Assembly (NCBI RefSeq): GCF_030297155.1
Contig: NZ_AP028067.1
Location: 1,178,001-1,242,000, forward strand
Source of the DNA: Vibrio sp. FE10
GTDB taxonomy: Bacteria; Pseudomonadota; Gammaproteobacteria; Enterobacterales; Vibrionaceae
Direction: 5' to 3'
Length of the DNA: 64,000 nt
The notes beneath the pieces are model-generated. The model was not told the DNA's origin, ran no database searches, and was given only the letters and a program-made list of their open reading frames with translations. Below, in pieces: positions 26,081 to 29,592 of this stretch (its first letter is position 1; the number at the start of each line of letters is the position of its first letter). Made by a program: the position numbers and the translations under genes.

Positions 26081-26155
26081 TATGGGGCAAAGAAATCAGA
26101 AACATAAATAGTTAAAAGATGAAAACCGATCGAAACCGATAAATAGCTAGAGAAC

Positions 26156-26192
26156 AAAAAAGGCGAGTGACTTAATCGTCATTCGCCTTTTT
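26156..26192. terminator. bidirectional terminator, mainly for the CARF nuclease gene
   Basis: AAAAAGGCGAGTGAC-like arm (from 26156) and GTCATTCGCCTTTTT (26178-26192), one G-T mismatch. T-runs lie on both strands. It sits 44 bases after the minus-strand CARF gene stop. Confidence 0.85.
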
Positions 26193-26235
26193 AGATTTAC
26201 TTAAGAGCGTTCAGCTCTCAAGAGTCTATTGGTTG

Positions 26236-27402
26236 TTAGCACTCTAAATCTTCATCACCACCGGCTGCGGTAAACCATGCCGTTAGGTGTGTTTTCAGAT
26301 CCTTCAATTCGTCAGGACCAATCAACGCAAGGCCAAGGTCTTCAGCTCGTGTGATGTCATTATGACGAAGAGGGCGGAAGCTCACCAGCATAGCACGTGC
26401 TTGTAGGCCACCTAATAGGTCTCTCAACGACTCCAGCTTGTACAAGGTGTCATCACCATCATCACGCATGCCTTTGGTCTTACATTCGATGATGTGGAGC
26501 TTATTGTTCACGACAGAAGCAACATCAAGCTCATTACGAACTTCACGCTCACCTAATTGGCGGTAAACTTGAACATTCAAAGAGCGATCTTGAATGGTCG
26601 GCATGTCATCTTGGATTTGTTTAACTGTGCTGTGAACCAGAGTCTCTAGCCATTCGCCGTTAGAGAAACGTCGTGCATCTTCATTGGCAAACGTCAAAAT
26701 ACCATTGTCATAAGTGGCAATCTTCGCTTCAACTAAATCACTCAATAACATGTTGAGCTCTCGGTAACCTTGTTGTTTTTCAGACAAGCCAACATCGAGC
26801 TTCTGTTCTTTACGGCAGGTTGTTGCAAGGTAGTTCAATGTTGCGAGGCCTGGGCCTAACTCTAATGCGTTACTTGCCCAACGTTCGCCCAGTTCATACA
26901 GTTTCTGATCAAGTTGCGGAGACAGTTGTACATCGCTGAATTCACCACGAGCACCAAACACTGTTAGGTAGTCGTCGATGGTAATACGGTCTTGTACTTG
27001 TGCGTCTTCTTTGCCACTTGGGTATAACCAGCACAGCTTGTCACTGTTCGGTTCAACCACAAAGATTGGCCAGTGGTAAGTGCGGAACACTTCGTACACA
27101 GAAAGTAGGCGGTGACGAAGGCCACAACTCGCGTTGAGTTTCACTTCTTCACCACGAGCTTTGAGGTCTTCGGCAAGGGTTTGGATAGAGGCTTTAATCG
27201 CAGATGTATTTACGAGGGTTGGAATCTCGAAAAACTCACTGGTAATGTCGCGCTTCTGCAAAACGCTGTCTAAGCGTTGGTACATACTGACTTGATTCTT
27301 GTCGCCGATAAACACGATATGAGTGCTGATCGTTCGGTTATCGAGTAGTGGAGTGATCAAGCGAATGGGGTCTTGATCGATAATGCCAACATGAACAGCC
27401 AT
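26236..27402 (-). CDS. CARF-domain PD-(D/E)XK protein (DUF1887, VC1899/Card1-like)
   Basis: A 388-residue protein. The N-terminal ~145 residues form a CARF-like Rossmann domain (VGIIDQDPIRLITPLL, THIVFIGDKNQ, LNASCGLRHRLLSVYEVF). A middle helical/winged-helix part spans about 160-245. The C-terminal PD-(D/E)XK nuclease core has D293 in NELDVASVV and the E306-C-K308 motif in HIIECKTKG. This matches the DUF1887 family that includes V. cholerae VC1899 and the cA4-activated nuclease Card1/Can2. Residues 90-97 (NASCGLRH) replace the usual N-x-TGGTK ring-nucleotide loop. No cas gene or CRISPR array is nearby. It is single, between an upstream chemoreceptor and its own terminator. Confidence 0.88.
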   Translation of the reverse strand: MAVHVGIIDQDPIRLITPLLDNRTISTHIVFIGDKNQVSMYQRLDSVLQKRDITSEFFEIPTLVNTSAIKASIQTLAEDLKARGEEVKLNASCGLRHRLLSVYEVFRTYHWPIFVVEPNSDKLCWLYPSGKEDAQVQDRITIDDYLTVFGARGEFSDVQLSPQLDQKLYELGERWASNALELGPGLATLNYLATTCRKEQKLDVGLSEKQQGYRELNMLLSDLVEAKIATYDNGILTFANEDARRFSNGEWLETLVHSTVKQIQDDMPTIQDRSLNVQVYRQLGEREVRNELDVASVVNNKLHIIECKTKGMRDDGDDTLYKLESLRDLLGGLQARAMLVSFRPLRHNDITRAEDLGLALIGPDELKDLKTHLTAWFTAAGGDEDLEC

Positions 27403-27491
27403 ATAAATTCCTTAATAGCGGCTCGCTCATAAAGGTGAAAGAAAAAAACGGGAAGCAGCAAGCCTTAATAATCATATAATGACAAAGATCA

Positions 27492-27530
27492 TAAAAAACA
27501 AGGGCAACCCTTGATAAAAGTTGCCCTTGT
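27492..27530 (-). terminator. Rho-independent terminator of the chemoreceptor gene
   Basis: ACAAGGGCAAC (27498-27508) and GTTGCCCTTGT (27520-27530); on the minus strand TTTTTTAT follows. Confidence 0.9.
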
Positions 27531-27600
27531 TCAAATAGTTACCACTATTGGGTAATAAGTCCCAATATTTTCACTAAATATCTATCAATTTCTCAGCTAC

Positions 27601-29592
27601 CTATAGCTTGAATTGATGAACTAAATCACCTTGCTGATTTGCCAGAATCGTTAGGTTTTGGCTCGCTTCTGCAATCGATGACATTGCTTGATAACTTGCA
27701 TCTGCAATGTGGTTGATGTCTTCGATGTTGCGCGCTATATCGCCAGAAGTTTCACTCTGCTCAGCGGCTGCTTGAGAGATATGTGTACTCATATGGCTGA
27801 TTTCTAGAATCAATGCTTGGATTTCTTCCATGGCACTGTTTGCGCTTGAAGCTTGTTGAACCGACATGTCCATATCGCTCATACAACTTTCAATGACGTT
27901 GCTTGCCGTTTTCGAACTTGATTGCAGGTTACTGATCATCGTCTCGATTTCAGACGTTGATTGTGTCGTCTTCTGTGCAAGCACTCGAACTTCATCGGCA
28001 ACCACGGCAAAACCACGACCTTGTTCACCGGCACGCGCCGCTTCGATCGCTGCATTTAGTGCGAGTAGGTTGGTTTGCTCGGCAATCCCGCGGATAACAT
28101 CGAGAATAGAACCAATCTGGCTACTCATCTGTTGTAGTTCGCCTACCGCACCTACAGATTCGGTCAAGCGGGCCTCAAGTTGGTTAATGGTACTGATGTT
28201 GGTGTTCATGATTTGACGACCAGATTCAGAAGCTGATTCCACTTGTTGAACCATGGTTAATGAGCTTTGCGCACTGTTTGCCACTTCTTGTACTGAATGA
28301 GACATTTCTGTCATCGCAGTCGCGACAGTTGCCGTTTGTTCGCGTTGGCTGTTCAGTTGAGCCTGCGTTTCTGTAGAGGTTTTTTGGTTTACGCTGGCAG
28401 TCTTAGTTAAGTCATCGGAAGCGTCATTCAGCTTCACCAGAATATTGCGTAGATTGTCGGCTAAGGTGTTGATGTGACGGCTCACTCGGCTGAATTCGTT
28501 GTCATAACGAATATCGATACGCTGAGTCATATCGCCTTCAGTCAGGCCTTCTAATGTGCCTAGAATGCGAGTTAATGGCTCTCTTACACTGTGTGCAATG
28601 TGGTAACCAATCGCGGCTGCAAATACGGTAACAACAATACCAATCGCAATTGCGTTGAAGAGGCCTTTGTCGTAGATGCTACTTGCGTCAGCTAAAGATG
28701 CGTTGAGTTGCTCTTCAGCAGTCACGTTGAATGAATCCAACACCGCCATCGCTTGGTCAACTTCAACGGCTAGGTTTGCGATGTTGACGTACAGCGCTTG
28801 TTTCGCTTGCAGGTAGTTGTTGTGTTTATCTAGTACGCCGCCTTTCTGGCCAACGTCTTTGGTGAATTTCTGAACCGATTCATCGAAGACATTTTTAAGC
28901 GCAGGCAGTTGTGTCGCTAAACCACGGTATGCGTAGTTTAGGTGAGTCACGGCCTTCTTGTTTTGGTTTACGGCTTTTTGCACGAATGCCACATCAGAGC
29001 TTGCTAGCGCATCTGAAGTGATTACTTCAGCGTCTTGTAGTTTGATGAAGTAGCTTTTCGCCATAACTTTTACAGAGATGCTTTTTTGGTCGGCAACGTA
29101 CTCTTTCATTCCGACTGTTAATTCAGAATGTAAGCGCTGGAAATCACGCGATGCTTTTTGTACTTGTTCTTGTGCTTCGAACATTGCCACATAGTTGGTC
29201 ATCGCTTCTGCGGCTTCAGTAAAGTAGCGCTCTTCCATGGCTCTTAACTGAGTAATACGCTCAACGAGAGTGATGTTGTCTTCACTCGCGGCTTCTAATC
29301 TTCCTAATACTTCAGAGAAAGCGTCTTGTGATTCGGCAAATGTTGAACGCATTGCAGCCATACGTTCAGCGTTTTGTGTGGTTAAGAAGTCTTTGAATGA
29401 CTTATCAGCAGAGAGCAATTGGACACTTGTTTGATTTGAAAGCGCAACAAGCGGTAATGAGGTTTCTGAGACACTCTCAAAATTGCTGTGTATCTGATTC
29501 ATGCTGTTCATCATGATGGTTATCGTGACTGCGAACATGATGATGATCAGTGCGAAACCAGCGTACATACGCTTGATCACAGATCCCTTCAT
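27601..29592 (-). CDS. methyl-accepting chemotaxis protein
   Basis: A 663-residue transmembrane chemoreceptor. TM1 lies near residues 9-29. A large helical periplasmic sensor (about 30-305) with no PAS/Cache motif is followed by TM2 near 310-332, a HAMP domain ([22 protein letters not shown]) and the signalling hairpin tip [32 protein letters not shown]. There is no C-terminal NWETF-type CheR tether. The helical sensor resembles four-helix-bundle (HBM/TarH-like) receptors; the ligand is unknown. It is monocistronic with a terminator, upstream of the CARF nuclease gene. Confidence 0.93.

Follow-up and report, generated by a model that had tools for sequence, protein, structure and literature searches.

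The locus described here raises the question of why a CARF-domain nuclease, built like the effectors of type III CRISPR systems, is maintained in a genome in which no match to the RAMP proteins of such systems was found. The gene lies in a stretch of 64,000 nucleotides from Vibrio sp. FE10 (assembly GCF_030297155.1, contig NZ_AP028067.1, positions 1,178,001 to 1,242,000), the whole of which is referred to as the window, and coordinates are counted from its first letter. It seems likely, if not strongly so, that this is a vertically inherited core gene of the Vibrionaceae in which a nuclease of the Can2/Card1 type has been kept, while the ligand pocket of its CARF domain has been re-specified to a small molecule other than cyclic tetra-adenylate (cA4).

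The gene itself is as follows.

26236 to 27402, minus strand: orphan CARF and PD-(D/E)XK nuclease of 388 aa, orthologue of VC1899 (open reading frame, Pfam, phmmer and structure comparison)

The open reading frame (ORF) begins with ATG and runs from 27402 to 26236. Its product matched the Pfam family Card1_endonuc (PF09002) over residues 240–379 (E 5e-64) and CARF_Card1 (PF23400) over residues 15–145 (E 2.4e-5), the latter at 24.8 bits and so barely over the cut-off of 24.6. Two PADLOC models were also matched, CARF4-PD-(D/E)XK (E 1e-146) and "Csx1, CAS-III associated signaling" (E 2.9e-148), the second of which also scores the most divergent copy of the family (locus L177, E 4e-75; loci and genomes carry our L and G numbers). 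NCBIfam gave no match. Domain bounds were set by us at about residues 1–140 for the CARF domain, 141–240 for a winged-helix middle part and 241–383 for the nuclease; three domains had been described for VC1899 in 2006 (PMC1462988).

Among solved structures, phmmer returned Vibrio cholerae VC1899 (PDB 1XMX, E 8e-226), Can2 (7BDV, E 3e-27), Cdn1 (8Z4I, E 6e-6) and Card1 (6WXW, E 7e-6). VC1899 is 85–86% identical and showed no difference of substance, and the closest named record by protein identity was from Vibrio lentus (100%). An AlphaFold2 model (mean pLDDT, the predicted local distance difference test, 92.0; predicted template modelling score 0.88), built on a 29-row alignment from which L181 was left out, superposed on the 1XMX crystal with a root-mean-square deviation of 0.9 Å over 378 residues and aligned across nearly the full length with Can2, Cdn1 and Card1. 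The protein thus has a CARF domain followed by a PD-(D/E)XK domain with complete catalytic residues, as is characteristic of the Can2/Card1 family (DUF1887, PF09002). A preliminary description, made by a model from the letters of this DNA, had proposed this architecture, the label "VC1899 type" and the comparison with 1XMX and Card1, and Pfam, PADLOC and the superposition bear it out. Likeness to ring nucleases of the Crn1 type is fold similarity alone, and in a viral structure library TMq was at most 0.27 throughout, among the matches listed.

Three segments of the gene carry the argument on function.

26479 to 26532, minus strand: PD-(D/E)XK active site E291-L-D293 ... E306-C-K308, codons 291 to 308, its four residues invariant in 134 rows

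27112 to 27135, minus strand: NASCGLRH, codons 90 to 97, in place of the N-x-T-G-G-T-K loop of cA4-binding Can2 proteins

27361 to 27378, minus strand: D-Q-D-P-I-R, codons 9 to 14, an acidic strand-1 loop in place of S-x-Q-P-x-P

The nuclease core given in the preliminary description (D293, E306, K308) was correct, with E291 to be added, and so was its reading of the ligand loop at N90–H97. Conservation was measured over an alignment of 134 rows, none below 55% identity, namely 133 distinct proteins and the query, which repeats one of them; L177 (41%) was excluded, and the protein set had been cleared of L001 (a duplicate), L145 (shortened by ORF picking) and the interrupted copies L173 and L176. 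In all 134 rows the catalytic residues E253, E291, D293, E306 and K308 were invariant, as were D9, D11, R14, N90, A91, S92, G94, R96, H97 and V115 of the CARF domain, out of 128 fully invariant positions altogether. The CARF domain is the least conserved part overall, despite these invariant pocket residues. Ten of 15 pocket residues were invariant against 3.1 expected (p 0.00015, 20,000 draws), the residues having been partly picked after alignment; for the CARF residues named by PMC7969007 only, the figure was five of nine against 1.9 expected (p 0.02). Q334 of the nuclease domain, which PMC7969007 puts beside the modelled ligand, was kept in 133 of 134 rows, and its conservation would fit a coupling of pocket and nuclease.

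The cA4-binding signature of type III effectors, a strand-1 Ser loop and N-x-T-G-G-T-K, has been lost from the vibrio protein. Relatives outside the Vibrionaceae mostly have S-x-Q-P-x-P-N and N-A/V-T-G-G-T-K, with Y-V-H-P after strand 5, whereas the Vibrionaceae clade has D-x-D-P-x-R and N-A-S-C-G-L/I-R-H, with V/I-E after strand 5, so that the clade departs from most relatives outside the family in the whole pocket signature at once. Can2-type proteins encoded near RAMP genes in Vibrionaceae vary at the loop (NLSEGRPG, NATCGTKP, NVSEGRAG, NVTQGNIG, NASGGTKP).

The distribution of the gene was surveyed in 247 Vibrionaceae genomes drawn evenly across the family. It was present in 241 of them and in 12 of 13 genera, and in 234 of the 240 genomes with completeness of 90% or more and contamination of 5% or less; the six genomes in which it was missing are G169, G193, G194, G002, G003 and G021, five of them small (1.0–3.1 Mb). 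Across the order, 32 of 295 genomes matched, 23 of them Vibrionaceae and the other nine at 28–37% identity (two partial); across the class, 23 of 369 genomes matched besides the own genome, with full-length matches reaching 36% identity. Phage records gave no match, and a single one of 72,556 plasmid records matched weakly (Aeromonas media, 30% over half of the query).

This distribution is independent of RAMP and SMODS genes. The type III RAMP model (PF03787) had no match in the whole own genome and matched in 16 of the 247 Vibrionaceae genomes, all 16 of which also carry the CARF nuclease; 225 of the 241 carriers are without a RAMP match. The gene was thus found neither beside type III genes nor, judged by the RAMP model, in a genome possessing them, and no direct-repeat array was found in the window (seed 16, length at least 23, copies within 120 bases), in line with the orphan status first assigned to it. 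The tight correlation with type III systems that the preliminary description had named as the outcome speaking against it was not seen, RAMPs occurring in 16 genomes and the gene in 241. Outside the Vibrionaceae the situation is different, as 24 of 32 host genomes of relatives have RAMP matches, the remaining eight being G275, G385, G491, G519, G550, G741, G786 and G833. For cyclic-oligonucleotide-based antiphage signalling systems (CBASS), the co-occurrence search that had been suggested for Vibrio genomes was made with the SMODS model. PF18144 (SMODS) covers only part of the CD-NTase clades, and within this scope, other clades not being searched, cyclases were found in 24 of the 247 genomes and none in the own genome, leaving at least 217 of the 241 carriers without a SMODS match. 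Nor does the gene stand beside a CD-NTase gene, its flanking genes belonging to other families.

The Pfam model Cas10-Cmr2_palm2 (PF22335) was tried as a marker for type III systems and replaced by PF03787, since it matched 209 of 247 genomes, against 16 for RAMPs. It scored over its cut-off in 160 of the 247, and the better of its two matches in the own genome, the hit that was checked, proved to be a GGDEF diguanylate cyclase; the model is likely to be a source of false Cas10 calls.

Gene order was compared at named loci, the best 80 of 148 places and therefore biased to close Vibrio. The neighbours include genes, identified by family, which we take to be udp, hinT and COG3014, and one for a methyl-accepting chemotaxis protein (MCP). 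In the 74 named core loci (mostly 17 kb), hinT was found in 71, and udp, MCP or hinT in all 74, as they were in 53 of 59 core loci of four kb (exceptions L151, L155, L159, L162, L174 and L182); MCP hits could be paralogues. Together with the presence in 241 of 247 genomes, this upholds the earlier impression of a resident gene in a core-gene neighbourhood.

The ratio of nonsynonymous to synonymous substitution (dN/dS) was calculated by the method of Nei and Gojobori for pairs with dS 0.1–0.9 (51 pairs for the CARF nuclease, 42–48 for each neighbour), and loci with a gapped tblastn alignment or coverage below 90% were left out, so that of the 80 loci 69 were used for the CARF nuclease, 31 for udp, 70 for MCP, 77 for hinT, 34 for the tetratricopeptide-repeat (TPR) lipoprotein and 76 for lpoB. 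The whole gene gave 0.019, its middle part 0.012 and its nuclease part 0.010; the neighbours gave 0.017 (udp), 0.022 (MCP), 0.009 (hinT), 0.016 (lpoB) and 0.035 (TPR lipoprotein). The CARF nuclease gene is thus under strong purifying selection, on a par with its neighbours. Two further observations were made on the core loci. The copies at L173 (G057) and L176 (G016) are apparently interrupted, each matching in two pieces, which could reflect a pseudogene or an assembly fault, and L182 (genome G129, contig C7) is a second core-gene copy, 63% identical to the query, in a genome that contains another.

An orphan CARF nuclease in vibrios is as such already known. The CARF domain of VC1899 served as a reference structure in PMC4012209, where family members outside CRISPR were noted, and PMC7969007 (2021) described VC1899 as an orphan CARF protein with no type III CRISPR association. 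When cloned in that work it did not nick plasmid DNA at 37 or 50 °C and had very little RNase activity, which was independent of cA4; it was not activated by cA4, the contacts to which are not conserved except for the basic character of R96, and it was suggested to be a degenerate enzyme "cast adrift". The proposal of the preliminary description that the activator may differ from cA4 agrees with these data. Among openly licensed literature, no later functional paper assigning a role to VC1899 was found. What is new here is the core status, the synteny, the purifying selection, the strictly kept replacement signature of the pocket and a covarying stem in the mRNA leader.

Known systems differ from the vibrio protein in several respects. 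Can2 of Sulfobacillus thermosulfidooxidans (7BDV), 21–23% identical, is a cA4-activated DNA nickase and RNase, whereas in the vibrio protein the cA4-binding signature is replaced and the gene is away from type III genes. Card1 (6WXW, 6XL1), 15–18% identical, has a different genomic setting, and Csx15 is without the nuclease domain of Can2. Cdn1 (9U49, 8Z4I) differs in belonging to a type III-B cluster, and it responds to both cA4 and cA6 (PMC12825302). Orphan Csx15 resembles it in being CARF-like and partly outside CRISPR loci, and differs in being of ring-nuclease type and binding cA4 (PMC13148439).

The relationship to CRISPR-linked proteins was examined in a tree of 56 rows, in which the query and 27 further rows stand for the Vibrionaceae; L202 was left out, as were six relatives with sequences either too short or overlong (L207, L210, L212 to L215). 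The Vibrionaceae clade had support of 100/100, a sister group of L178 to L181 94/91, and both together 98/92, and the next branch out (94/90) contains L184, L188 and L189, all near RAMPs. The sister group has part of the altered pocket signature. Its member L178 (9269–10411, with L220:746–2569 in the same genome, G340; LDNEP, NASTGSHH) sits 31 bp from a membrane-CARF gene that ends a type III locus. This locus has a Cas7-IIId-like gene, and at a greater distance ORF reading disclosed a reverse-transcriptase-Cas1-like gene as well as a Cas10 bearing a GGDD motif. Around L179, L180 and L181 no cas-like gene was seen by eye in the surrounding ORFs, and their genomes have no RAMP match. Tree and sister loci would fit, without proving it, a CRISPR effector that altered its pocket and left CRISPR. 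Within the sister group, L179 (9322–10485, genome G385) was read as flanked by coupling-protein-like and transposase-like ORFs, a setting like that of a mobile element, and L181 (8821–9957, genome G015, contig C2; NASCGPRH) is a second CARF nuclease, 36% identical, in a Vibrionaceae genome where the core copy is present as well.

Descent from a CRISPR-linked protein, gating by a ligand, nuclease activity, substrate and physiological role are what we infer from these observations. Departure from the CRISPR locus probably preceded the change of the pocket. By analogy with Can2 (PMC7969007), the protein would most likely be a dimer, silent until ligand binds; the ligand, a small molecule other than cA4 and a product of the core cell rather than of Cas10 or CBASS, would be seated across the CARF dimer in the acidic pocket of D9, D11 and R14 with R96 and H97, and its binding would close the PD-(D/E)XK domains on DNA or RNA. 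Since almost every Vibrionaceae genome carries the gene, the ligand should have a source almost as widespread, which favours a core metabolite or signal over the product of a mobile defence cyclase. More tentatively, and with a probability that we put well below even, the sensor pocket of a CRISPR alarm effector may have been converted, no later than in the ancestor of the Vibrionaceae, into the receptor of an endogenous signal other than a cyclic oligoadenylate, giving almost every vibrio a ligand-gated nuclease; among openly licensed literature, a signalling pathway of this kind was found nowhere described. On this reading the acidic pocket could accommodate a ligand that bears a cationic group, for instance an S-adenosylmethionine adduct or an aminoacyl-type nucleotide, which is speculation, and at L178 a Cas10 may still be making the same altered ligand.

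Several points weigh against a re-specified, ligand-gated nuclease. Gating and catalysis are proposals, and the published assay of VC1899 gave no DNase and very little, cA4-independent RNase activity (PMC7969007). The CARF domain is the fastest-evolving part of the gene (dN/dS 0.034), two residues near the modelled cA4 of that paper vary (D34 is D in 83 and Q10, more moderately, is Q in 117 of 134 rows), and in L177, at 41% identity the most divergent copy, H97, V115 and E117 are replaced by K, Y and D. By superposition, the earlier paper PMC6981274 judged that VC1899 could hold cA4, with main-chain contacts likely kept. The supposed move out of CRISPR depends on a tree that has ten long terminal branches and a root placed by us on two rows.

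Among the other explanations, a housekeeping nuclease of DNA or RNA processing, with a CARF domain serving dimerisation or the binding of nucleic-acid ends or proteins and no diffusible signal, survives best, though we regard it as rather unlikely. It would agree with a core gene whose nuclease and middle parts are the most constrained, with the near absence of mobile carriage (the phage and plasmid searches above) and with the resemblance of the nuclease pair to EndoMS (PMC7969007); the clustering of invariant residues in the ligand-pocket loops speaks against it, both in the full set, whose loop residues were picked after alignment, and for the published CARF residues alone. It is improbable that the protein acts in trans as an effector of the type III CRISPR or CBASS systems that occur sporadically in vibrios. 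The fold, the relatives, the 16 RAMP genomes that all carry the gene and the position of L178 beside a type III locus could be cited for it, but most carriers lack any RAMP or SMODS match, and four of the 16 RAMP genomes hold a different Can2-type protein within 7 kb of the RAMPs (L183, L184, L188, L189, L190). Still more doubtful is a role as a sink or in the manner of a ring nuclease, in which signal molecules would be bound or cut and the nuclease would be secondary, the pocket being judged hostile to cA4 (PMC7969007) and the nuclease domain being the most constrained part. Least probable by far is the degenerate enzyme of PMC7969007, for which the lack of cA4 activation, the scant in vitro activity, the lost contact residues, the apparent interruption in two of 30 genomes inspected and the six genomes without the gene could be adduced, but which is contradicted by a dN/dS of 0.019, invariant catalytic and pocket residues and near-universal retention, none of them expected of a degenerate enzyme. 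The evidence thus points to a resident nuclease that has been adapted to a ligand other than cA4, or to a housekeeping nuclease.

The surroundings of the gene contain three further features.

27420 to 27464, minus strand: mRNA leader stem-loop (GGCUUGCU ... AGCGAGCC, variable loop), 17 nt 5' of the start codon, supported by covariation

26157 to 26192, no strand assigned: terminator-like inverted repeat between udp and the CARF nuclease gene, scored on the plus strand, with T tracts on both strands by reading

27496 to 27532, minus strand: terminator-like site of the upstream MCP gene, from the terminator scan

Downstream of a probable -10 box and ahead of the ribosome-binding site, leaders of the closer Vibrio species have two arms, GGCUUGC and GCAAGCC, which enclose a variable loop rich in pyrimidines. 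Over 44 leaders all seven pairs vary, six of them with changes on both sides (seven cells), and 97.7% of cells pair; the outermost pair fails in seven of the 44. None of 500 shuffles attained values as high as those observed, in a control that takes no account of relatedness, and with partners shifted by 1–3 columns at most 43% of cells pair. RNAalifold recovered six of the seven pairs unprompted. A model from the 44 leaders (R1) matched 15 of 16 (not L088) and 20 of 20 further named loci, a total of 79 of 80 of which 44 match by construction; eight leaders fit through long insertions only (L078, L082, L086, L087, L091, L094, L104, L108). It had a single match in the window (27400–27472) and a single one genome-wide, and in 38 other sources L150 alone matched (one of 11 in the same genus), so the stem is confined to the closer Vibrio species. 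Other leaders have unrelated hairpins by eye and fold mildly above shuffled sequence (mean z -0.95, 22 leaders). The mean folding z was -1.96 for 72 named leaders of the CARF nuclease, -0.52 for MCP, -0.28 for hinT, -0.93 for lpoB and -1.60 for udp, the last of which indicates that strong folding by itself does not set this gene apart. We read the leader as a presumably 5'-terminal mRNA stem that would govern stability or translation. Rfam in relaxed mode (26100–27620) gave nine matches, none at gathering score (best E 0.051).

The inverted repeat at 26157–26192, 43 bp beyond the stop codon, has 15 pairs with A/T tracts and corresponds to the terminator that the preliminary description had given the gene; with the MCP gene's own terminator-like site it makes the CARF nuclease gene look monocistronic. 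The T tract of the MCP site probably adjoins the CARF nuclease promoter, the position of which is itself presumed; a promoter scan gave two sites against 3.3 expected from shuffling. Consensus patterns for LexA, CRP and sigma-54 occurred upstream in 1, 10 and 0 of 80 leaders, and a very loose sigma-32-like pattern (54 of 80, without a control) was dropped.

If the favoured reading is true, a receptor for a CRISPR second messenger has been domesticated into the core genome of an entire bacterial family, and the ligand of the vibrio CARF nuclease would expose a signalling pathway that belongs to neither CRISPR nor CBASS. The conservation and selection data contradict the published idea of VC1899 as a degenerate remnant, and, judging from the PADLOC "Csx1" scores, models of defence genes are likely to report a CRISPR effector in the majority of Vibrio genomes. 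The invariant pocket supplies named residues, through which a crystal structure of 2004 without a function becomes testable.
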